Below are positions 1 through 10,863 of a stretch of DNA of 64,000 bases, piece by piece (within the stretch, counting starts at the first letter, position 1; every line of letters starts with the position of its first letter). The notes below the pieces were generated by a model. The model did not search any database. It had not been told where the DNA came from and saw nothing but the letters and a program-made list of their open reading frames with translations. Origin of the DNA: Thalassospira sp. MCCC 1A01148. GTDB taxonomy: Bacteria; Pseudomonadota; Alphaproteobacteria; Rhodospirillales; Thalassospiraceae. The stretch covers positions 1-64,000 of the forward strand of contig NZ_LPVZ01000012.1 in NCBI RefSeq assembly GCF_001613795.1, read 5' to 3'. A program made the position numbers and the translations under genes.

Positions 1-49
1 CCGATGGTACTTTGTCTTAAGGCACGGGAGAGTAGGTCACCGCCGGGCC
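1..49 (+). rRNA. rrf: 5S ribosomal RNA, 3' end only
   Basis: The first ~49 bases match the conserved 3' part of alphaproteobacterial 5S rRNA: a GATGGTAC arm, GGGAGAGTAGGTC, and a CGCCGGGCC end that closes the terminal helix. The 5' part lies outside the window, so this is the tail of an rRNA operon read on the plus strand. It is followed by a strong intrinsic terminator at 92-128. The exact 3' end (48-51) is uncertain by a few bases. Confidence 0.9.
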
Positions 50-91
50 TTCCAAATACAGCATCATATTCCCTATAAACACACGACTTTG

Positions 92-128
92 AAAACCCTC
101 GACCTTAACTGGTCGGGGGTTTTGTCGT
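92..128 (+). terminator. Intrinsic terminator of the rRNA operon
   Basis: A 13-base arm (92-104, AAAACCCTCGACC) pairs with 111-123 (GGTCGGGGGTTTT) across a 6-base loop, with one G-T wobble, and runs into a T-rich tract. It is placed as expected for the end of an rrn operon and should insulate the bufferin-like operon from rRNA transcription. Confidence 0.9.
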
Positions 129-321
129 TTCAGGTTTACATCATCATTGTGCGTTACCACCTCACGGAACGGTTCACGCGGTTGTGAGGAGATGTGGGGA
201 ATGTCTCACGTGTCTTTGACTGCGCGTGTGCGAATGGTGCAGTGACGAAAATACACATCGCGCTTACGGTTAAGTCATCGCTTGGAATTGATGTTCCTAA
301 TTTAACCGAAGGGAAACGACG

Positions 322-621
322 ATGAAAAAAGCAATGGTTTTGGGCGCAGCATTGAGTGCTGCTGTTTCGATGGCTGCAGTCGATCAGGCAGCTGCCGATG
401 GCGCCAAGGAGAAATGTTTTGGTGTGTCGCTGGCTGGTCAGAATGACTGTGCCGCTGGTCCGGGTACAACCTGTGCCGGGACGTCGACTGTCGATTATCA
501 GGGCAATGCCTGGAAACTGGTTCCGGCAGGTACCTGCGAGGATATGAGCTTCACCACGGCGGATGGCCGCGAAGTGACGGGCAGCCTCGAAGAACTTGAT
601 CGTGATCTCCCGCAGGGCTAA
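322..621 (+). CDS. bufA1: Bufferin-type RiPP precursor (DUF2282 family, BufA1-like)
   Basis: A 99-residue secreted peptide precursor. A Sec signal peptide covers about residues 1-25 and ends in an Ala-rich AAA/DG site. The mature part carries four cysteines, C32, C43, C51 and C72, in the family pattern KCxG...AGQNDCAAG...CAGTS...VPAGTC. In characterised bufferins an MNIO enzyme converts some of these cysteines to thiooxazoles and the peptide sequesters copper in the periplasm; that is family knowledge and not shown here. A Gly/Asp/Glu-rich C-terminal tail follows C72. An AAGGGA ribosome-binding site precedes the ATG. The upstream region (129-321) holds a GGAA-N6-TTCC palindrome at 284-297 that could be regulatory. 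The modifying-enzyme genes follow in the order bufB, bufC, DoxX. Confidence 0.85.
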
Positions 622-648
622 CGCCCAAACCTAACTTGCCCCCTCTAT

Positions 649-712
649 GGGCGGTCAGCACCGATCTGCATGTTTGCAAATGTCTCCTCCTGTCCCGATG
701 TGCTGACCGCCC
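649..712 (+). repeat. 13-bp perfect inverted repeat between precursor and maturase genes
   Basis: GGGCGGTCAGCAC (649-661) is perfectly complementary to 700-712, with a 38-base loop that contains a pyrimidine-rich CTCCTCC run. No T-run follows, so it is not a typical intrinsic terminator. It sits in the 127-base gap between bufA1 and bufB. It could be an mRNA processing or stability element that keeps precursor mRNA above maturase mRNA, or an operator; only the repeat itself is seen. Confidence 0.7.
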
Positions 713-748
713 GCCCGAGCTACGACTTACTGTTTGAGGTTGCTTGCC

Positions 749-1627
749 ATGAAAACGCCAACACAGCTTGCTGATCGAAAGCTTCCTGACCAGGCAGGTG
801 TCGGCTTCAAGGCCGAGCACGCGCAAGATGTCTTTGACGCAGCACCGGCTGCGGGCTGGTTTGAGGTGCATCCGGAAAACTACATGGTTGCCGGTGGGCC
901 ACGACTTGCCATGCTCGAAGAGCTTTGTGCCCGGTATCCGGTCTCGATGCATGGGGTCGGGTTGTCGCTTGGCGGCGGGGAGCCGTTAAACAAGAACCAT
1001 CTGGCCGATCTCAAGCGTCTGGTAGACCGGTTCAACCCCGCCATGGTGTCTGAACATATTGCATGGTCCGCGCATGAGGGGCTTTATATGGCCGACCTGC
1101 TGCCAACGCCGATGACGAAAGCTTCGCTTGCGCAGTTGGTGGATGCGATCAATACGGTGCAGGACTTTATTGGCCGCCGGATCCTGATTGAAAACCCGAC
1201 CTCTTACGTGCCGCTGCCACAAAATTCGATCCCCGAGCTTGAGTTTATCAGGGAGGCCGCTGAACAGAGTGGCTGTGGTTTGCTGATTGATGTAAACAAT
1301 GTTTACATTTCGGCCCATAATTTGGGCTTTGATGCCAATGCGTTTATTGATGCGGTGCCCGCTGATCTGGTTGGTGAAATTCATCTGGCCGGGCATGAGC
1401 GTGACGCGAACCCCGTAGATGATGTTCTGATCGATACCCATTCACGTCCGGTGGCCGATCCGGTATGGGACCTGTTTGATCGGCTGATTGCCCGCATCGG
1501 GCGCCGGCCGACGCTGATTGAATGGGATAATGACGTGCCCGGTTGGGATGTGTTGGCGCGTGAGGCAGCCCTTGCTGATCGCCACCTTGAATATGCCGTG
1601 AATGGGCAGCTTGAGGCCGCGTCATGA
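749..1627 (+). CDS. bufB: DUF692 multinuclear iron oxidase (MNIO), BufB-like bufferin maturase
   Basis: A 292-residue DUF692 protein with a TIM-barrel fold. Likely metal and substrate ligands are visible in family order: EVHPENY near residue 40, SMHG, SEHIAW, a LIENPTSY glutamate, LLIDVNNVYISAHN, GEIHLAGHE, DTHSRPV and LIEWDND. MNIO enzymes use a two- or three-iron centre to oxidise cysteine residues of RiPP precursors; here the substrate should be the DUF2282 peptide encoded just upstream. I chose the ATG at 749 with GAGGT ahead of it rather than the in-frame TTG at 734. The stop overlaps the next gene by 4 bases (ATGA), indicating translational coupling. Confidence 0.88.
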   Translation: MKTPTQLADRKLPDQAGVGFKAEHAQDVFDAAPAAGWFEVHPENYMVAGGPRLAMLEELCARYPVSMHGVGLSLGGGEPLNKNHLADLKRLVDRFNPAMVSEHIAWSAHEGLYMADLLPTPMTKASLAQLVDAINTVQDFIGRRILIENPTSYVPLPQNSIPELEFIREAAEQSGCGLLIDVNNVYISAHNLGFDANAFIDAVPADLVGEIHLAGHERDANPVDDVLIDTHSRPVADPVWDLFDRLIARIGRRPTLIEWDNDVPGWDVLAREAALADRHLEYAVNGQLEAAS

Positions 1628-2418
1628 GGGATCTCAGGACATTTTATGACGGCTTTGCCGAAGCGCTGCGTGCACCGGAACCGGACGCGGTGCCGCATAG
1701 TGTTGCCGAAGGTTATGCGCACCGCTTTGCAATTTACCGCAACAATGTTCATCGCGGTCTTTATGACGCGCTGGGCGCTGCTTATCCGACTGTGCGCAAG
1801 CTGGTTGGAGATGGCTTTTTTGACCGCCTTGCACAGGGTTTTGTGCAGACAGAAACATCGCGTGCAGGATCGCTTGCCCTTTACGGCGCAGGCTTTGCCG
1901 ACTTTCTTGAGACCCATTCTGTGCGCGAAAGTCTGCTATACCTGCCAGATGTCGCGCGGCTTGAACGCGCGCGGCTTGAGGCCAGCACAGCTGACGATGC
2001 CGAACCGCTTCTGGCTTCCGACCTTGTCGGGTTTGAGGACCATCTTGAGGGCATGAAGCTGAACGCCCATCCGGCGTGTCGAGTAGTTACATCAGAACAC
2101 CCGGTATTTGCAATCTGGACCGCACAGAACGGAGATGCCAGCGGACAAAGCGGCAAAACCCGCATTGTGCAGCGGCCGGTAACTGTTCTGATTGCGCGAC
2201 CTTTCATGCATGTCGAGATGCATCTTTTAAGCGCCGGGCAGGCTGCATTCTTTGAGGCGGTGACGCGTAACGGGCTTGGCCTTGGGGATGCCTGTGCCAA
2301 AGCACTTCAGGCTGATCCGGATTTTGATGTCATCGCCCGTTTTGCAGAATTTTTGACAATGGGTGCGTTTGACGCCCGCATGGATACCCCGAAAGGAAAC
2401 GGGCATGATGATGAATAA
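1624..2418 (+). CDS. bufC: DUF2063 bufferin-maturation partner (BufC-like)
   Basis: A 264-residue protein whose N-terminal ~95 residues form the DUF2063 domain (YRNNVHRGLYDAL followed by AYPTVRKLVGDGFF). In MNIO clusters this protein acts as the partner that presents the precursor to the DUF692 enzyme; older annotations call it a putative DNA-binding protein. The C-terminal half (after ~110) is a less conserved mixed domain. It overlaps bufB by 4 bases and the following DoxX gene by 14, so the three are co-translated. Confidence 0.85.
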   Translation: MRDLRTFYDGFAEALRAPEPDAVPHSVAEGYAHRFAIYRNNVHRGLYDALGAAYPTVRKLVGDGFFDRLAQGFVQTETSRAGSLALYGAGFADFLETHSVRESLLYLPDVARLERARLEASTADDAEPLLASDLVGFEDHLEGMKLNAHPACRVVTSEHPVFAIWTAQNGDASGQSGKTRIVQRPVTVLIARPFMHVEMHLLSAGQAAFFEAVTRNGLGLGDACAKALQADPDFDVIARFAEFLTMGAFDARMDTPKGNGHDDE

Positions 2419-2947
2419 TGTACATAACGTAATGGGCGGCTTTGCCCGTTTTGAGACGAAAATCGATTCCCTGGCAGGACGGGACTATGTCGGTCTTGGC
2501 GCCCGGGTTCTTTTTGTTGTTGTGTTGCTGCCATACTACTTCAATAGCGCGTTGACCAAAATTGATGGCTTTGGTCTGAGTGCGGGGGCATTTGCCCAGA
2601 TCCTGCCACCAATTGCAGAACAGTATATGTATGATACGTCTGCCATCCCGTTCTTCCCGTGGCACCTGATCGTCTGGGCCGGGACGATTGGCGAGTTTGT
2701 CTTGCCGCTTCTGATCGTTGCTGGCTTGTTTACCCGACTTGCCGCCCTTGGCATGATTGGCTTTGTGATTGTGCAAACCGTGGTTGATGTAGCGTTTCAT
2801 GGCGCGACCCTTGGCATGCTTGCCAACGGTCTGCCGACAGAGCTGATTGATCAGCGCCTGCTTTGGGTTTCGCTTTTGGCTGCTTTGGTGTTTGCCGGCG
2901 GCGGGGTGGTCTCGCTTGATCGGTTGGCGCGTAGGACAGTCGCCTAA
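2405..2947 (+). CDS. DoxX-family membrane protein of the bufferin cluster
   Basis: About 180 residues with four predicted membrane segments (starting with VLFVVVLLPYYF) and the DoxX-like pattern around HLIVWAGTIGEFVLPLLIV. DoxX proteins often accompany DUF2282/DUF692/DUF2063 genes; a quinone-linked redox role has been suggested for the wider family but is unproven here. The start at 2405 is preceded by AAAGGA and yields a compact protein; an in-frame ATG at 2363 would add 14 residues inside bufC. It is the last gene of the cluster, facing the GntR gene on the other strand. Confidence 0.8.
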   Translation: MMMNNVHNVMGGFARFETKIDSLAGRDYVGLGARVLFVVVLLPYYFNSALTKIDGFGLSAGAFAQILPPIAEQYMYDTSAIPFFPWHLIVWAGTIGEFVLPLLIVAGLFTRLAALGMIGFVIVQTVVDVAFHGATLGMLANGLPTELIDQRLLWVSLLAALVFAGGGVVSLDRLARRTVA

Positions 2948-2979
2948 GACCAGCCATAGAGCCGCGCCCTTAGGGGTGA

Positions 2980-3741
2980 TTATTCCCCGACCGCGATGTC
3001 ATTTGAAACGCCGTCAGAGGCCAAATCTTCTGACGGCGTTTTGCCGTCGCCTTCACGCAGGCTTGCCAGATATTCCTGACTGATGTCATGCACGGCCATG
3101 ATGTGCCCGTAAAGGAGCTCTTCGGCGGCCTTGAAGTCACCGCGCAGGATAGCATCAACAATGCCCTGATGTTCGCCATGAGATGCGGCAAGGCGGGGTA
3201 GGCTTGAAAACTGTACCCGGCGAAATGGTGCAACACGACGGCGCACCGAAAAGGTAACATCAACCAGCACGTCGTTATGGGTGCCGCGATAGAGCGTGTT
3301 GTGGAAGGACCGATTCAGGGCCTCATAACCGTCGCTGTCGCCCAGACGGACTGTCTCGGCCAGTTCATGATGGAGCTTTTCAAGCGTATGGCGTTCTCCG
3401 CTGGTCATACGTTTGGCAGCAAGCCGCCCGCATGTCCCTTCCAGCTCTGCCATGCTTTCAAACATTGCCGTGAGGCGTTCGGGCGTTGCCAGTGAAACAT
3501 ATACGCCGCGATTTGGGATTTTTTCGGCAAGTTCAGTTGCCGTAAGCAGCTGAAGGGCTTCGCGAACCGGCGTGCGCGATACGCCAAACCGCTTGGCAAG
3601 AAGCGGTTCTTCAAGTCGGGTGCCGGGCGCCAGTTGCCCGGAAACAATATCATCCTCCAGTGCCTGGCAAAGCTGTGCGGCAATGCCGATCGGTTCTGGT
3701 TGTCCGATTGGGCTGGAAAGTGTTTGGCGGAGCATGGACAT
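2980..3741 (-). CDS. GntR-family regulator with FCD ligand domain
   Basis: About 253 residues. The N-terminal winged helix contains PLLAKRFGVSRTPVREALQL; the C-terminal all-helical FCD domain has the usual His/Asp-rich metal or ligand positions (RSFHNTLYRGTHN, ASHGEHQGIVDAI, YGHIMAVHD). It is divergent from the TRAP operon at 4076 and is presumably its repressor. Two TGTATACA elements in the shared intergenic region (3792 and 4000) are plausible operators. The ATG at 3741 is preferred; the in-frame TTG at 3753 abuts the purine-rich ribosome-binding site. The last ~20 codons contain, antisense, a perfect terminator hairpin (3006-3042). Confidence 0.85.
   Translation of the reverse strand: MSMLRQTLSSPIGQPEPIGIAAQLCQALEDDIVSGQLAPGTRLEEPLLAKRFGVSRTPVREALQLLTATELAEKIPNRGVYVSLATPERLTAMFESMAELEGTCGRLAAKRMTSGERHTLEKLHHELAETVRLGDSDGYEALNRSFHNTLYRGTHNDVLVDVTFSVRRRVAPFRRVQFSSLPRLAASHGEHQGIVDAILRGDFKAAEELLYGHIMAVHDISQEYLASLREGDGKTPSEDLASDGVSNDIAVGE
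3006..3042 (+). terminator. Terminator of the bufferin operon embedded in the gntR 3' end
   Basis: AAACGCCGTCAGA (3006-3018) pairs perfectly with TCTGACGGCGTTT (3029-3041), followed by a short T-run. It lies 60 bases past the DoxX stop on the plus strand but inside the minus-strand GntR coding region, so those codons do double duty. Confidence 0.75.
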
Positions 3742-3791
3742 CTGGCGTTTCAACCCTTCTTGCGAGGTTTTGAGAGGTTAATCCCTCTGAA

Positions 3792-3799
3792 TGTATACA
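3792..3799. promoter_or_regulatory. TGTATACA palindrome, candidate GntR operator (gntR side)
   Basis: A perfect 8-bp palindrome, within ATGTATACAC, 50 bases upstream of the gntR start. The same ATGTATACAC string recurs at 3999-4008 in front of the TRAP operon. FCD-type GntR regulators commonly bind short palindromes of this kind; binding is inferred. Confidence 0.55.
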
Positions 3800-3859
3800 C
3801 CAGGTTAGTGTGGAAAGCCAAGTACGTCCGTACGGTGTAGATGCAGGCTTAAAAATCAT

Positions 3860-3897
3860 GCGTAAAATTGTATAAAAATTATGCATTAAATTTACGC
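3860..3897. repeat. GCGTAAA/TTTACGC inverted repeat in the gntR-TRAP promoter region
   Basis: GCGTAAA (3860-3866) and TTTACGC (3891-3897) form a 7-bp inverted repeat around an AT-rich centre. It lies midway between the two TGTATACA elements, where the divergent promoters are expected. Function unknown. Confidence 0.35.
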
Positions 3898-3997
3898 GCA
3901 TCAAAGAAATGATCAAAAAATGTGCTTTTTGCGAAATGAATGAGTCGCAATAATTCTGTAAGTTGTTGAAAATAAAGGAATGGCATGTGTGTTGCTA

Positions 3998-4011
3998 GAT
4001 GTATACACATC
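3998..4011. promoter_or_regulatory. TGTATACA palindrome, candidate GntR operator (TRAP side)
   Basis: GATGTATACACATC contains the palindrome TGTATACA and also reads as GATGT-N4-ACATC. It lies 65 bases before the TRAP substrate-binding gene and repeats the element on the gntR side, suggesting that one regulator covers both promoters. Confidence 0.55.
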
Positions 4012-4075
4012 GTGAAACTCATTCCGATGAGCTTTCCTCCTAGAAGAAAACGCTATCTCTATCAGGGAGACTTCA

Positions 4076-5194
4076 ATGACAAACATTAAACGACGCGACT
4101 TTCTGACCAAGTCGGCAATCGGCGCTGCGGCAACGGGGGCAGGGGTAATTGCCGCCCCGAACATCGTGCGCGCCCAGGAGACCTTTAACTGGAAAATGAC
4201 CAATGCCTATGGTCCGGGATCACCCTTTTATGTGACGGGTCCGGGTAGCCCCGAAGATTTCTGCAAGCGCGTGACAGAAATGTCCAATGGTCGTCTGAAC
4301 ATTCAGCATTTCGCCGCTGGCGAATTGATCCCGGCCCTTGAGGGTTTTGATGCCGTTCAGGCCGGGACGGTCGAAATGAATGCCGCCAATGCCTATTTCT
4401 GGGCTGGTAAAATCTTTGCCGCGCAATATTTCACGACCGTGCCATTCGGCTTGAATTTCCAGGGCGTGAATGCCTGGTTGTACCATGGCGGCGGGCTTGA
4501 GCTGTGGCATGAGGTTTACAAGCCATATGGTCTTGTGGCTTTCCCGATGGGGAATACTGGTGTTCAGATGACCGGCTGGTTCCGCGAGCCCATTGAAAGC
4601 CTCGATGATTTCAACGGCCTTAAAATGCGTATTCCGGGTCTTGCCGGAAAGGTCTATCAGCAGATCGGTGTTGAAGTGAAACTGCTTCCGGGCGGGGAAA
4701 TCTTCCCGGCACTGGAACGTGGTGTGATTGATGCGGCCGAATTCGTGGGCCCGTATCAGGACCGTCGTCTGGGCCTGCAGAAAGCAGCCAAATACTACTA
4801 CACCACCGGCTGGCATGAGCCGTCCAACGTGACCGAACTTCTGATCAATCAGCAAGCATGGGAAAGCCTTCCGGCGGATCTGCAGGCGATTGTCAAAAAT
4901 GCGGCACAGGCCTGCAACCTTGATAGTCATTCATGGTGTGAAGCCAACAACGCAGCCGCCCTGCGTGATCTGGTCGAGAACTTTGGCGTCACCGCCCAAA
5001 CCCTGCCCGATGATGTCGTCACCAAGCTTAAGGACATTACGGCAGAAACGCTTGAAACCGAAGCGGCCAAAGACCCGATCACCAAGAAGGTCCATGACAG
5101 CTTCATGGCGTTCCGCGACACGCACCGTGAATGGGCTGCAATCAGTGAAAAACCCTATCACGGGATCATTTCCTCGAAAGGCGGGATGAGCTGA
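4076..5194 (+). CDS. TRAP transporter substrate-binding protein, TakP-like
   Basis: A 372-residue periplasmic binding protein. A Tat-type leader (twin Arg in KRRDFLTKSA, cleavage near VRAQ at ~32) is followed by the DctP fold. The layout YFWAGK...TVPFGLNFQG, GNTGVQMTGWFREPI, LKMRIPGLAGKVYQQ and DAAEFVGPY resembles TakP, which binds monocarboxylic 2-oxo acids through a conserved Arg and a cation. The arginine in KMRIPG is the likely carboxylate anchor of the DctP family. It is followed after 1 base by dctQ, then dctM. The substrate is inferred only by resemblance. Confidence 0.85.
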   Translation: MTNIKRRDFLTKSAIGAAATGAGVIAAPNIVRAQETFNWKMTNAYGPGSPFYVTGPGSPEDFCKRVTEMSNGRLNIQHFAAGELIPALEGFDAVQAGTVEMNAANAYFWAGKIFAAQYFTTVPFGLNFQGVNAWLYHGGGLELWHEVYKPYGLVAFPMGNTGVQMTGWFREPIESLDDFNGLKMRIPGLAGKVYQQIGVEVKLLPGGEIFPALERGVIDAAEFVGPYQDRRLGLQKAAKYYYTTGWHEPSNVTELLINQQAWESLPADLQAIVKNAAQACNLDSHSWCEANNAAALRDLVENFGVTAQTLPDDVVTKLKDITAETLETEAAKDPITKKVHDSFMAFRDTHREWAAISEKPYHGIISSKGGMS

Positions 5195-5195
5195 T

Positions 5196-5765
5196 ATGAC
5201 GTCGACCCGTTCTGAACCGTTATTCGACCGCGCCCTTGGTTTTGTTGTCGATGCGGCCGGGTGGGTGGCTGCGCTCAGTGGTCTCGCACTTGTGCTTGTG
5301 GTCGGTGGCAATGTGTTGCTGCGCTATCTGTTTAATTCGGGGAGCGTCGCGATGCAGGAACTTGAATGGCATCTGGTTTCACCAATTGCCCTGATGGGGA
5401 TGGCCTATGGCATGCGTCATGGTGGTCATGTCCGGGTCGATTTTCTTTATGAGCGTCTGGGCCCAAGGGCCCAGGCGATCATTGATGTCTTTTCTGCTGT
5501 GTTGATGGCTATTCTTGGTGCAGCCCTGATCTGGTTTTCGATCCCCTATGTCGAGCAATCCATCATGATGGGCGAAGGATCGCCTGATCCGGGGGGCTTG
5601 CCTTATCGCTTCATACTCAAGGCCTTTATCCCGATTGGTTTTGGTCTGTTGCTGATTCAGGCAATCGCACAGAGCTTGATCAGCTATCGCCAAATTTTCG
5701 CTGAACACAGCGCCCCTGCCTTTGATGCATCGAACGTGGCGAAACAAGTCGGTGCAGGAGACTAA
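5196..5765 (+). CDS. dctQ: TRAP transporter small permease (DctQ)
   Basis: A 189-residue membrane protein with four predicted helices and the DctQ features MQELEWHLV and GMRHGGHVRVDFLYERL. It joins the large subunit DctM and the periplasmic receptor to form a sodium-coupled importer. It begins one base after the stop of the binding-protein gene and is followed by dctM after 6 bases, so the three are one operon. Confidence 0.9.
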   Translation: MTSTRSEPLFDRALGFVVDAAGWVAALSGLALVLVVGGNVLLRYLFNSGSVAMQELEWHLVSPIALMGMAYGMRHGGHVRVDFLYERLGPRAQAIIDVFSAVLMAILGAALIWFSIPYVEQSIMMGEGSPDPGGLPYRFILKAFIPIGFGLLLIQAIAQSLISYRQIFAEHSAPAFDASNVAKQVGAGD

Positions 5766-5771
5766 TCAAAA

Positions 5772-7097
5772 ATGACCGGAAATGAATGGCTGGCCATTGG
5801 CATGGTCGGAGGCTTCTTTGGCTTCCTCGTGCTCGGTGTGCCAGTGGCGATCTCGCTTGCGATTTCGGGATTTGCCTTTGGAATTATGGGGTTTGGTACC
5901 GGCTTGTTTAACTTGCTGCCTGCCCGTGTGTATGGCGTTGTGACCAATTACACGCTGCTTGCATTGCCGCTTTTCATCTTTATGGGGGTGATGCTTGAAA
6001 AGTCGAAACTTGCCGAAGAACTGATCGATGTGATCGGCCACGCCATGGGACGCCTCAAGGGCGGCATGGGGCTTGCCATCGTAATCGTCGGCGTTCTGAT
6101 GGGGGCATCATCGGGCGTTGTTGGGGCGACTGTTGTCACTGTCGGCTTGCTGTCGCTTCAGCCGTTGATCAACCGGGGCTATGACAAGGGGGTTGCCAGT
6201 GGCGTGATTTGCGCATCCGGGACGCTGGGACAAATTATACCGCCCAGTCTGGTTCTGATCTTGCTGGCGGACATTTTGGGGGAATCTGTCGGGACCCTGT
6301 TTGCTGCGGCCATGGTGCCGGGCTTGATCCTTGCGGGGATGCTTGGACTTTATCTGGTGCTGCTTGGTATCTTCAAACCCGAAATGGTGCCCGCGATCCC
6401 CAAGGATGAGCGCGATGCCATGAGCACGCAGCAATTGTTGCTCAAGATTGGCAAGGTCGTTGTGCCGCCGTTGGCCCTTGTCTTTGCGGTGCTTGGCTCG
6501 ATTGTGGGGGGTGTTGCTGCCCCGACCGAAGCGGCATCCATGGGCGCGCTTGGGGCATTGCTTCTTGCGCTGTTTACCGGACGCCTGAATTTCGGTGTGA
6601 TGCGCGATGTGCTGCATGACACTCTGATTACCAGCGCTATGGTATTCTTTATCCTGATTTGCGCACAACCCTTTGGTCTTGCGTTCCGCGGGCTTGGTGG
6701 CGAAGGGCTTGTGCATGCCCTGTTTGACTGGGTGCCAGGCGGGGATATGGGCAATCTTCTGTTCATGATGGCCCTGATCTTTGTCCTGGGCTTCTTCCTT
6801 GAATGGATCGAGATTTCCTATATTGCGCTGCCGATGTTTCTGCCGGTGTTCCAATATAGCGGGATCGACATGGCCTGGCTTGCCATTCTGGTCGCGATGA
6901 ACCTTCAGACCAGTTTCCTGACCCCGCCGTTTGGCTGGGCTTTGTTCTTCCTGAAGGGGGTTGCGCCAAAATCGGTTTCCACAGTTGATATCTATCGCGG
7001 GGTGATTCCGTTTATCGGGATTCAGGCGGTTGCACTGATCTTGTTGTTCATGTTCCCGGGATTGACCAGCTGGTTGCCCGACCTGATTGGTTGGTAG
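5772..7097 (+). CDS. dctM: TRAP transporter large permease (DctM)
   Basis: A 441-residue DctM/ion-transporter-superfamily protein with about 12 membrane segments. Family signatures include GASSGVVGATVVTVGLLSL, GTLGQIIPPSLVLI, AAPTEAASMGA and NLQTSFLTPPFGWALFFLKG. It provides the translocation pathway of the TRAP system encoded at 4076-7097. No fusion to DctQ. A hairpin at 7158-7188 separates it from the hydrolase gene. Confidence 0.9.
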   Translation: MTGNEWLAIGMVGGFFGFLVLGVPVAISLAISGFAFGIMGFGTGLFNLLPARVYGVVTNYTLLALPLFIFMGVMLEKSKLAEELIDVIGHAMGRLKGGMGLAIVIVGVLMGASSGVVGATVVTVGLLSLQPLINRGYDKGVASGVICASGTLGQIIPPSLVLILLADILGESVGTLFAAAMVPGLILAGMLGLYLVLLGIFKPEMVPAIPKDERDAMSTQQLLLKIGKVVVPPLALVFAVLGSIVGGVAAPTEAASMGALGALLLALFTGRLNFGVMRDVLHDTLITSAMVFFILICAQPFGLAFRGLGGEGLVHALFDWVPGGDMGNLLFMMALIFVLGFFLEWIEISYIALPMFLPVFQYSGIDMAWLAILVAMNLQTSFLTPPFGWALFFLKGVAPKSVSTVDIYRGVIPFIGIQAVALILLFMFPGLTSWLPDLIGW

Positions 7098-7157
7098 GGC
7101 AATTCTACGATGTGAAAAGGCGCTGAACGAATTGTAAAAACAGCGCTATGAACAAAC

Positions 7158-7188
7158 CGGGCATGTCGCACAGCACGCGGCATGCCCG
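7158..7188 (+). repeat. mRNA hairpin between TRAP permease and hydrolase genes
   Basis: CGGGCATG (7158-7165) pairs with CATGCCCG (7181-7188) around a 15-base loop. There is no T-run, so read-through into the hydrolase gene is likely; it could tune or process the transcript. Confidence 0.45.
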
Positions 7189-7217
7189 AAAGCATAAGGC
7201 AGGGAGGCCACAGCACT

Positions 7218-8807
7218 ATGTTACGTTCAAGAACCGCCCTCGGGGGCATGGTTACCGCACCCCATCATCTGGCGTCCGAGGCCGGGCGTGACATTCTGCG
7301 CGAAGGTGGCAACGCGGTTGAAGCCATGATTGCCGCGGCTGCGACCATTGCGGTTGTCTATCCGCACATGAACGCGATTGGTGGCGATGGATTTTGGCTG
7401 ATCTCCGCGCCCGGCAAGGACCCGGTTGCCATCCGGGCCTGCGGCGGGGCGGCGGGGCTTGCAACGCCCGGCTTTTATCGCGAACAGGGCAAGGACGCGA
7501 TCCCGGCCCGTGGTCCACTTGCGGCACTGACTGTCGCTGGTGCGATTGGCGGCTGGATCAAGGCGGCAGAGGTTGCTGCATCACTCGGCGGCAAAATCCC
7601 GCACAGTCGCCTGATGGCAGATGCGGTCCATCATGGCAAAGCTGGTGTGCCGGTTACCAAGTCGCAGGTTGCCCTGACCACGACCAAAATGGCGGAATTG
7701 AAAGACTCACCGGGCTATGTTGATACCTATGCCGCCAACGGTATTCCTGCCATTGGCGACGTGTTGAAACAACCGGCCCTTGCCGCAACGCTAGAACATC
7801 TTGGTCGTGTTGGTTTTGATGATTTTTATCGCGGTGATATCGCGCGAACCAATGCCCGCGGGCTTGAAGCGGTCGGAAGCCCGCTTCGCCTTGCCGATTT
7901 TGAGGCCTACGACGCCAAAATCATGACGCCGCTCTCGGTCAAGCTTTCGACCGGTACCGTTTTCAACATGGTCCCGCCGACCCAGGGTGTGGCGTCGCTG
8001 ATGATCCTTGGCCTGTTTGATCGGCTGGGATTGTCCGGTGCGACACTGGACGGGTTTGACCATGTCCACGGATTGATCGAGGCAACCAAGCGCGCTTTCC
8101 TGAAACGTGACGCCCATGTTGGCGATCCGGACCGGATGAGCATTGATCCGATGGCGTTGCTGTCTGATGAGATGCTCGATCATGAGGCAGTCAAGATTGA
8201 TATGAAGACAGCACTTTCTTGGCCGCATGTTGCCAAGCCGGGCGATACGATCTGGATGGGGGCGGTTGACGCCAACGGTGTTGCGGTCAGCTATATCCAA
8301 AGCATCTTCTGGGAGTTCGGATCTGGTGTCGTGGTGCCGGAAACCGGCGTGCTTTGGCAAAACCGCGGCTCAAGCTTCACGTTGCATGATGGCCCCAATC
8401 AGCTTGGACCGGGCCGCTTGCCGTTCCATACGCTTAACCCGGCCTTGGCAAAGCTCAATGACGGATCGGTGCTGACCTATGGCACCATGGGCGGTGAGGG
8501 ACAGCCGCAAACCCAATCGGCGATCTTTACCCGCAATGTGATGTATGGACAGGACCTGCAGGAAGCCGTCACCGCGCCACGCTGGTTGCTGGGCAAAACA
8601 TGGGGCGAAGACACCACAACCCTTAAACTCGAAAGCCGCTTTGACCCGGCCCTGATCGAACAACTGAAAACAGTCGGTCATACGGTCGAAGTCGTTGGCC
8701 CCTATGAAGACATGATGGGCCATGCCGGCGGCATTCGATTGCGTAAGGATGGTGTGATGGAAGGTGCAACCGATCCGCGCGCGGATGGGGCGGTTGCTGC
8801 GTCTTGA
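7218..8807 (+). CDS. Gamma-glutamyltransferase-family Ntn hydrolase, cytoplasmic
   Basis: A 529-residue GGT-fold protein that should self-cleave into two subunits. The new N-terminal nucleophile is predicted to be Thr344 in GDTIWMGAVD, which aligns with the catalytic Thr of classical GGT although the neighbouring TTH motif is not kept. An N-terminal GGNAVEAMIAAA and a late GTMGGEGQPQTQ are family hallmarks. There is no signal peptide, unlike secreted glutathione-degrading GGTs, so it should act on imported substrate. Co-orientation with a TakP-like TRAP importer suggests a small amide; oxamate amidohydrolase HpxW belongs to this family and is one candidate. The ATG at 7218 has an AGGGAGG site 10 bases upstream; an ATG at 7182 is in frame but less likely. 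Confidence 0.8.
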   Translation: MLRSRTALGGMVTAPHHLASEAGRDILREGGNAVEAMIAAAATIAVVYPHMNAIGGDGFWLISAPGKDPVAIRACGGAAGLATPGFYREQGKDAIPARGPLAALTVAGAIGGWIKAAEVAASLGGKIPHSRLMADAVHHGKAGVPVTKSQVALTTTKMAELKDSPGYVDTYAANGIPAIGDVLKQPALAATLEHLGRVGFDDFYRGDIARTNARGLEAVGSPLRLADFEAYDAKIMTPLSVKLSTGTVFNMVPPTQGVASLMILGLFDRLGLSGATLDGFDHVHGLIEATKRAFLKRDAHVGDPDRMSIDPMALLSDEMLDHEAVKIDMKTALSWPHVAKPGDTIWMGAVDANGVAVSYIQSIFWEFGSGVVVPETGVLWQNRGSSFTLHDGPNQLGPGRLPFHTLNPALAKLNDGSVLTYGTMGGEGQPQTQSAIFTRNVMYGQDLQEAVTAPRWLLGKTWGEDTTTLKLESRFDPALIEQLKTVGHTVEVVGPYEDMMGHAGGIRLRKDGVMEGATDPRADGAVAAS

Positions 8808-9046
8808 CGCAAAGGGTGTGCTCTCTATGTGTTGGGCGAAGTGTCTTCGAATGGTATATGCATTTTTTATGATTTTTTGCATAGGGTGAAATGGGCTGAA
8901 ACAGAAGTGGCAGCTCATTGAGTGCTTTTCTCTGATTGAGTAAGGGATTCCTTTGGTAAATTTTTAGTATGGGTTTAGTGTTTGTTTAAATAAAAAACTC
9001 ATTTCCGTGTTAGCAGAGATACATAATGTACTCCGTTGGAGGATCC

Positions 9047-9703
9047 ATGCTTGTATATGTTGCCTACGTATTTTGTGCTGTTTTCGCTCTTTTGAGCATC
9101 TTTTTCTTGTTTAGTAATAGGCAGAATATAAAAAGTTTGAGTTTTTCTGAAAAATCATCAGTGCTTAGCAGTTCTGCTCAAGTTATCTTTATATCACTTG
9201 GTTCTGCAGTAGCACTCTCGTCACTTGATGTTGCTATACTGCAAGGAACACGTGCTCAGCAGTTTCGAACTTCAGAGATTCTCGAGAAATATGATCCGGA
9301 TAAGATGGACGAGAAAATCCGGAAGTACAATGAGTTTATGAGCTTACTGCTCCGGAAGGCATATAGAAATGACCTTGAGCCGTCTGCACGTTTGGAAAAG
9401 GCTACAGAGCTCTTTCAGGCCGGTTTGGTGGAAGATCATGATTGGTTGACGGGGGCGCTGTCTGAGCTGCTTGTTTGTGGCGAAGTTGAGGTGTGTAACT
9501 CAGATAGAATAAAGAAAACAGTTTGTTTTTTAACTGACGACCAAATTCGAAACCTTGTTCGAGAGCCATTATTTAGCATACCGGGTTCGTTAAGTAATTT
9601 CGTCTTCGATTCACGCGAAAATATGGCGCGCCTTCAGCGAGAATCTTGCGGTGTGATTTCTTCTGCAATAGATTACTACGACGAAAAATGGCGCGTGCAA
9701 TAG
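9047..9703 (+). CDS. Hypothetical two-TM protein, AT-rich orphan
   Basis: About 218 residues with two N-terminal hydrophobic segments (roughly 3-23 and 43-63) and a soluble, charged, helical C-terminal region with four cysteines. I recognise no family. The DNA is clearly more AT-rich than its neighbours and codon use differs, which suggests horizontal acquisition. GGAGG lies just before the ATG at 9047; an upstream in-frame ATG at 9026 would add seven residues. The flanks 8808-9046 and 9704-9813 are AT-rich with nothing else recognisable. The protein could be a membrane-anchored sensor or effector, but this is not supported further. Confidence 0.6.
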   Translation: MLVYVAYVFCAVFALLSIFFLFSNRQNIKSLSFSEKSSVLSSSAQVIFISLGSAVALSSLDVAILQGTRAQQFRTSEILEKYDPDKMDEKIRKYNEFMSLLLRKAYRNDLEPSARLEKATELFQAGLVEDHDWLTGALSELLVCGEVEVCNSDRIKKTVCFLTDDQIRNLVREPLFSIPGSLSNFVFDSRENMARLQRESCGVISSAIDYYDEKWRVQ

Positions 9704-9813
9704 GTTCCACGGTAGTTATTTGTCCAAGTGATTTCTATTTCTTCTGGCTTCAATGAATCTTGCTTGTTATCAGTTTGTTTAGGCGAGGCTTAGTTTTACG
9801 AATGTGATCTGGT

Positions 9814-10863
9814 TTAAGTAATCTCCCACTCAATAACGTGGTGATACGTCTCGCCGGGTTTGAGCCACGGGCCTGGGAAGTCCGGGTTATTTGGGCTGTT
9901 GGGGTAGGTTTGCGGTTCAAGGGCGATGCCGCCCGATGTGTGAAGCGGCACGCCGTTTTCGGTTTTCATTGCATCATTGAAATGCTGCGCGAGATAGAAT
10001 TGCAGACCGGCCTCGGTCGAAAACAGGTTGATCGACCGCTTGCTTGTTGGATCTGACAGGGTGGCGATCTGGCGCAGCTCGCCGCGGGGGCCGGTCAGGC
10101 AGAAATTGTGATCAAAGCCTTGGGACGCCTGCGGCAGCATATCGGAAATCCGCGCCGGGCTGCGGAAGTCATAACCCGTCCCCGTAACATCGCGGATTTC
10201 GCCCGTCGGGATCAGTTTGTCATCCACCGGAAGCCATTGATTGGCGTTGATTTTCAAGACGTGATCGCCGGCCGTCTTATCAAACGTGCCCGACAGGTTC
10301 CAATAGGCGTGGCTTGTCATGTTGACCGGGCAGGGCTGATCGCAGGTGGCGGTAATTTCAAGCCGCAGACGATTATCCGCAACCAGTGAATAGGTCGCAG
10401 ATGCGCTCAGATTTCCCGGATATCCCTGGTCGCCATCGGGCGAGGTCAGCTTAAACGTAACACTGCGCTCTGTTTGATCGGAAATGGTCCACAGCCGCCT
10501 GTCAAAGCCATCCGGTCCGCCATGCAGGTGGTGTTCGCCTTCATTGGCGGCAAGCTGAACAACGTCGCCGTTTTCATCCCTGTAGCGCGACTTTTCGATG
10601 CGATTGGCATAACGCCCGCACACCGCGCCGATATAGCTATCCTGATCAAGATAGGCGGCGTCATCGATCAGGTTGACCGCGATATTGGTTTCGTGTCCGT
10701 CCTTTGGATCACGCAAATATAGCCCGCAAAGGCGCGCGCCAAGTGCAGAAACCAATACGCGAATCTGAGAGCTCTCTAATGCCGCGCGGGGGGCATTTTC
10801 GCCCTTTTGAAGTGTGTTAGTATGGGGTTTTGCCATGTATGGTATCGCGATGGTTTGTGACAT
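9814..10863 (-). CDS. galM: Aldose 1-epimerase (mutarotase)
   Basis: A 349-residue GalM-family beta-sandwich enzyme that interconverts alpha and beta anomers of aldoses. Visible motifs: GRYANRI, HHLHGGPDGFDRRLW (catalytic-region His), NMTSHAYWNLSG (second His) and IALEPQTYPNSPN, whose Glu is the usual base. It is divergent from the sugar ABC importer at 11026 and probably feeds the same sugar into an oxidative pathway. About 30 N-terminal residues precede the family core, so a shorter start (ATG at 10836) is possible. Confidence 0.88.
   Translation of the reverse strand: MSQTIAIPYMAKPHTNTLQKGENAPRAALESSQIRVLVSALGARLCGLYLRDPKDGHETNIAVNLIDDAAYLDQDSYIGAVCGRYANRIEKSRYRDENGDVVQLAANEGEHHLHGGPDGFDRRLWTISDQTERSVTFKLTSPDGDQGYPGNLSASATYSLVADNRLRLEITATCDQPCPVNMTSHAYWNLSGTFDKTAGDHVLKINANQWLPVDDKLIPTGEIRDVTGTGYDFRSPARISDMLPQASQGFDHNFCLTGPRGELRQIATLSDPTSKRSINLFSTEAGLQFYLAQHFNDAMKTENGVPLHTSGGIALEPQTYPNSPNNPDFPGPWLKPGETYHHVIEWEIT

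Follow-up and report, generated by a model that had tools for sequence, protein, structure and literature searches.

A probable Buf1-type bufferin operon of a Thalassospira-like bacterium, with a predicted stable hairpin between its precursor and maturase genes

Introduction

Bufferins of the Buf1 kind carry four conserved cysteines, of which the inner pair is modified and the outer pair forms a disulphide, and thousands of them have been compiled (PMC12452194, section 14 and, for the cysteine pattern, a figure legend). Copper induces the DUF2282, DUF692 and DoxX genes of Caulobacter through SigF, as described in passages of PMC8224329. Here we analyze a window of 64,000 nucleotides from the start of a 564-kb contig (NZ_LPVZ01000012.1) in the 4.31-Mb genome of Thalassospira sp. 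MCCC 1A01148; a cluster of four genes of this kind lies near its beginning. We conclude that this cluster is very probably a bufferin operon of the Buf1 type (a thiooxazole 'captophorin') from a Thalassospira-like bacterium, encoding a modified peptide that would sequester copper. As one more Buf1 bufferin the cluster is ordinary; the one lead that it offers beyond this is a predicted hairpin in the gap between bufA and bufB.

Results

The cluster has the gene content and order of bufferin operons

The cluster consists of bufA, bufB, bufC and doxX (Table 1). A preliminary description of this DNA had given the gene content and order as DUF2282-MNIO-DUF2063-DoxX; its coordinates are correct and all four Pfam scores lie far above chance. 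bufB has an alternative in-frame TTG at 734 and overlaps bufC in an ATGA, and the doxX start overlaps the bufC end. All four frames are open and conserved among relatives, and the genome holds one copy each of MNIO and DUF2282. Downstream of doxX lie a GntR/FCD regulator on the opposite strand and a DctP-type solute-binding protein. The BufA cysteines named earlier (C32, C43, C51 and C72) stand at those positions in the translation and are invariant in 12 aligned BufA sequences, the window's included. Judged by eye, the BufA N-terminus looks like a signal peptide, with a Lys-Lys start, a hydrophobic stretch and an AxA-like end.

Table 1. Features of the cluster and its upstream region (window positions)
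Feature	Position	Strand	Description
5S rRNA 3' end, cut by contig start	1-48	+	48 nt, 100% identical to positions 68-115 of the 5S gene in locus L061
Terminator-like hairpin after rRNA operon	85-126	+	-24.3 kcal/mol, z -4.24, 0/200 shuffles as stable
Conserved block, promoter/operator candidate	216-246	+	many letters invariant in 22 genus genomes with DUF2282
Possible leader hairpin before bufA start	262-313 (approximate limits)	+	z -2.29, 7/200 shuffles as stable
bufA	322-621	+	Buf1 precursor, 99 aa; DUF2282, PF10048 89.6 bits, cut-off 22.4
Intercistronic hairpin	649-712	+	perfect 13-bp arms 649-661, 700-712
bufB	749-1627	+	MNIO maturase; MbnB_TglH_ChrH 333.4 bits, cut-off 25
bufC	1624-2418	+	DUF2063 partner; PF09836 76.4 bits, cut-off 27.2
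doxX	about 2405-2947	+	DoxX-family membrane protein; PF07681 34.5 bits, cut-off 23.6

DUF2282 is present in 22 of 29 genomes of the genus and in 105 of 297 genomes sampled across the order. The MNIO is found in 23 of the 29, the additional genome (G026) holding a piece of the cluster that is interrupted by a contig end and lacks DUF2282. Every one of the 22 genus loci keeps the order bufA-bufB-bufC-doxX, either in full or up to the point where the fetched stretch ends. Of 504 named matches, the best 80 have bufA immediately 5' of bufB in 78 cases, bufC nearby in 78 and doxX nearby in 66.

BufB and BufC group with bufferin maturases and MNIO partners

BufB scores 367.8 bits against the NCBIfam model NF050167 MNIO_BufB ("MNIO family bufferin maturase"; cut-off 310). 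It stays below the other NCBIfam equivalog cut-offs, with 56.3 of 325 bits for MbnB (TIGR04159), 231.4 of 360 for HvfB, 37.9 of 600 for ChrH and 87 of 400 for ApyH, and thus reaches no equivalog cut-off of the methanobactin, oxazolin, chryseobasin or aminopyruvatide MNIO systems. BufC and DoxX likewise fall below the NCBIfam cut-offs of HvfC (43.3 against 142) and HvfX (24.6 against 80), as would be expected if these models are tuned to oxazolin clusters, and BufA matched no NCBIfam model. Residues invariant across 14 aligned BufBs include H68, H103, E148, D181, N183, H212, D229, H231, E258 and D260, several of which we take to be MNIO metal ligands, with likely ligand and catalytic roles. In a tree of 81 BufBs and four second-copy MNIOs, in which the bootstrap had not settled, the window's copy lies inside a 13-row Thalassospira clade (support 100/99) and the four second copies form a separate group (100/100). 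The nearest named relatives among the best 80 of 504 matches are also Thalassospira. The equivalog score and the tree together place this DUF692 protein with DUF2282-linked maturases and not among non-bufferin members of its family.

One second MNIO cluster, at 5340-10313 of locus L079 (genome G016), encodes heme-binding FMP-type, ferritin-like, divergent MNIO and DUF2063 proteins. Its MNIO is also above the BufB cut-off (350 bits), and the ferritin-like protein, 691 aa long with a Cys-rich C-terminal segment, is a possible protein substrate. Neither 'Ferritin' nor 'VioB' appears in PMC12452194, as far as its main text goes.

The AlphaFold2 model of BufC (pLDDT 86.5, built from 15 sequences) has a predicted RRE-like C-terminal domain of strands and helices. 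Its best solved matches in Foldseek were 8hi7_A (E 1.8e-6), 8hci_A (1.9e-6) and 3dee (NGO1945, 4.5e-5), the next following at 0.54, and TM-scores by query length were moderate at 0.53-0.55. In the TglHI holoenzyme structures 8hi7 and 8hci we take chain A to be TglI, since 8hci has its MNIO as chain D, and the match of BufC to TglI is a loose one (TM 0.55, rmsd 8.4). Since the TglHI partner chain and NGO1945 are named as MNIO partners (PMC12452194, section 18), the fold of BufC, as modelled, would be that of known MNIO partners. Sequence profiles of BufA and BufC matched no solved structure.

The BufB cut-off passed, the modelled BufC fold, the grouping of BufB with Thalassospira and the gene order together support assigning the cluster to Buf1, an already known kind of which it would be one further member. 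The match to bufferins proposed earlier is thereby borne out in its sequence-level features, the signal peptide by eye.

The tail, the rRNA neighbor and the missing ECF genes are shared with relatives or vary in the genus

The preliminary description had suggested that this copy is unusual in its tail, its rRNA position and its missing ECF genes; each of these turned out to be common in relatives or variable within the genus. The Gly/Asp/Glu-rich BufA tail after the last cysteine is present as described and is not special to the window's copy. It measures 27 residues in 12 of 12 Thalassospira-clade rows and 25-28 residues, with a similar pattern, in the nine nearest others (L138-L146), which rules it out as an oddity; Caulobacter rows with the tail listed have 16 residues.

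The position directly behind an rRNA operon is credible, given the 5S end in the window and a complete 23S-5S in the corresponding position of a two-contig genome (G008), and the operon itself is not fully visible, as the window begins at contig base 1 and retains only the last 48 nt of the 5S. Rfam gave no match on window positions 1-6000, the 5S piece being too short for it. In 9 of 22 genus loci a 5S ends 227-284 bp 5' of bufA, and two further contigs end at about that point. Three genus loci have a 5S match 1.3-3.8 kb from bufA, in genome G004 a 40-nt piece only, and eight have none within the 1,962-4,500 bp available upstream. The piece in G004 (locus L060), about 1.5 kb 5' of bufA, is identical to the 5S 3' end; no rRNA gene exceeds the Rfam threshold in that stretch, and the piece is perhaps a remnant left by a rearrangement that involved an rRNA operon. 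In the hairpin that follows the 5S end in the window, an A-tract pairs with a T-tract at the stem base; it is absent from the list of a consensus terminator scan. Read-through from the rRNA operon is not favored as a driver of bufA, with a predicted terminator in between and 8 of 22 loci showing no 5S in the upstream stretch available.

The earlier report of no ECF or anti-sigma genes alongside holds for the first 14 kb of the window, searched with one query each and with the upstream side cut by the contig end. NrsF was found nowhere in the genome, and none above the cut-off was found in 25 of 29 genus genomes, the window's included. Elsewhere, of the 80 named clusters that score best among 504 matches, 24 have both an ECF and an NrsF nearby and the other 56 showed neither, and an ECF lies near 11 of 40 hand-chosen order loci with none found at 29; these counts rest on one query each within 4.5 kb (named loci) or within the fetched stretch, and several stretches end at contig ends. 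The window falls in a 22-row tree clade whose support is not strong (86/88) and whose other 21 loci showed no ECF or NrsF, 10 of them having less than 4 kb upstream. ECF and NrsF accompany a part of the Buf1 clusters and do not define them.

A genus-specific block and a possible leader hairpin precede bufA

The block upstream of bufA is kept in the 22 genus loci together with a TA at 265-266. Its 31-mer has one site in its own genome when up to 3 mismatches are allowed. A search of 19 of the 22 genus loci for its core pattern gave a single site in each of 18; a simpler core was found in none of 13 non-genus bufA upstream regions tested (of 68 named). In one reading, a sigma70-like promoter would have its -35 at 242-247, a 17 bp spacer and its -10 at 265-270, the remainder of the block being an operator; the list of a consensus promoter scan has no promoter at 242-270. 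A shorter form of the block has 10 genome sites against 3 in the reversed control, all except that of bufA at 3 mismatches, and we therefore claim no regulon defined by it. Elsewhere on the contig, at 139815-140189, lies a CueR-family regulator scoring above its curated cut-off.

The leader hairpin was assessed in an alignment (A2) of 17 of the 22 leaders, those of G010, G011, G014, G019 and G021 being left aside. Its paired-cell share, covariation score and number of cells changed on both sides exceed 500 of 500 shuffles; for pairs changed on both sides, 13 of 500 shuffles scored at least as high, and for further pair types 127 of 500 did. Sliding by -1 gives the same counts of both-side changes, and RNAalifold predicts no consensus structure. 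A possible, if weak, reading is that the hairpin hides the bufA ribosome site. If the -10 at 265-270 is correct, the 5' arm of this hairpin is not transcribed.

Stable folds are over-represented in the gap between bufA and bufB

The window gap between bufA and bufB (622-748) folds with z -3.76, and none of 200 shuffles was as stable. We surveyed this gap in 130 loci, in which alignment identified 126 bufA-bufB pairs (22 in the genus and 104 others; none in L113, L119, L166 and L168). The gap is at least 35 nt long in 78 of the 126 pairs and shorter in the other 48, all of which belong to the 104 non-genus clusters. With gene starts called by simple rules and a threshold chosen after the window hairpin was first seen, z was -2 or lower in 49 of the 78 longer gaps, made up of 17 of the 22 genus gaps and 32 of the 56 others. 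The control consisted of gaps of 35-220 nt between other same-strand genes of these loci, likewise called by simple rules; 38 of 178 reached this value (8 of 25 in the genus alone). The gap rows are not independent, L088 and L187 apparently representing the same contig (55,321 bases); with one gap per similar group, 38 of 65 were stable (Fisher p 7.7e-8 against the control). Stable folds are thus over-represented in the bufA-bufB gap. Five genus loci lie above z -2, two without a stem (L066, L075) and three with a stem that is not extreme (L005, L063, L072).

A T-rich tail follows only 7 of the 49 stable gap hairpins and is missing from that of the window, so that most of them, the window's included, are not plain intrinsic terminators by sequence. 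As a dispersed repeat the window hairpin was rejected for its own genome, where its single match is itself; the 10-base core of its arms has 30 genome sites, of which two belong to the hairpin itself, and the reversed control has 5. In Caulobacter loci L172, L178 and L196 the gap holds very strong hairpins (z about -5 to -8), and some hairpins of Caulobacter bufA-bufB gaps may be dispersed palindromes. The words 'hairpin', 'stem-loop' and 'terminator' are absent from the main text of the papers on bufferin and captophorin clusters that were searched, a set outside which the original bufferin paper lies, and a literature search on related terms gave no report of a gap hairpin by title or abstract among the matches listed.

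Discussion

By analogy with published work, including that on Caulobacter (PMC12452194; PMC12668002), BufA would be made as a precursor with a Sec-type signal, which BufC would bind and present to BufB. BufB would act as an iron enzyme, oxidizing the central C43 and C51 to 5-thiooxazoles, and C32 and C72 would form a disulphide. The modified BufA would then be exported by Sec to the periplasm and sequester excess copper, with DoxX as a putative accessory membrane protein.

An alternative to the copper role in this scheme is a bufferin-type cluster that serves mainly another metal, or redox or sulphur stress. It is suggested by 'gig' operons, which gold induces, and by MerC fusions; section 21 of PMC12452194 brings up further metals as well as further stresses in the case of DoxX, and the regulation here is unlike the copper-tied SigF/NrsF control of Caulobacter. 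We nevertheless consider this reading unlikely, because the BufA core and BufB fall within the family of Caulobacter vibrioides Buf1, its studied member and a chelator of both Cu(I) and Cu(II) (PMC12452194, section 21). That BufB makes another product, oxazolone/thioamide for instance, or acts at residues other than C43 and C51, appears quite improbable: MNIO product structures have been disputed and revised (PMC12668002), but passages of that paper argue that PME1-dependent MNIOs install 5-thiooxazole broadly, and the equivalog score and tree put BufB with DUF2282-linked BufBs. A degenerate or silent cluster, retained through its rRNA linkage, would fit the 5S that adjoins 9 of 22 genus loci and the 7 of 29 genus genomes without DUF2282 (one of them, G026, cut by a contig end), but hardly deserves credence given four open frames conserved in relatives and an upstream block that is still kept in the 13 of 22 loci where no 5S was seen within 300 bp of bufA.

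For the copper-sequestering bufferin that we prefer, the missing NrsF and the genus-specific upstream block mean that regulation must differ from that in Caulobacter, and induction by copper is here a possibility. The gap hairpin may help to yield more precursor than enzyme. Joining both points, we tentatively propose, as a reading that is plausible yet somewhat short of probable, that a hairpin in DUF2282 operons, either kept or repeatedly arisen with unrelated sequence, would decouple precursor levels from enzyme levels, and that the Thalassospira operon would be under a genus-specific operator replacing SigF/NrsF, with copper or another metal acting through a regulator that has so far had no connection with bufferins. 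The hairpin offers a simple, testable idea for an excess of peptide over enzyme, and Thalassospira would be a genus in which to study how bufferins are controlled where SigF/NrsF is missing.

Comparison with known systems

Microcin C likewise has a hairpin between the precursor-peptide and modifying-enzyme genes, the mccA-mccB terminator (described in a passage of PMC6495379), whereas the window hairpin has no T-rich tail. Methanobactin MbnB/MbnC shares the MNIO superfamily with BufB, which scores far under the MbnB cut-off, and the window differs from it by a precursor with a putative signal peptide and by a DUF2063 partner. The captophorins, a proposed class of bufferins, oxazolin, fontiphorin, bulbicupramide and gonophorin, share the MNIO and the DUF2063-type (PME1) partner with the window, whose precursor is of the DUF2282 kind and does not consist of EGKCG repeats (passages of PMC12668002). 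In C. vibrioides OR37 (L159), whose gene is not necessarily the orthologue of the studied Caulobacter gene, BufA, in a row cut near its end, is 55% and BufB 53% identical to that of the window. The BufA tail after the last cysteine has 16 aa there against 27 in the window, an ECF/NrsF pair adjoins the cluster whereas the window's genome has no NrsF, and the Thalassospira upstream block was not found 5' of bufA. With Buf1 of C. vibrioides the window's operon shares the four-cysteine pattern, the MNIO, the DUF2063 partner, DoxX and the gene order.
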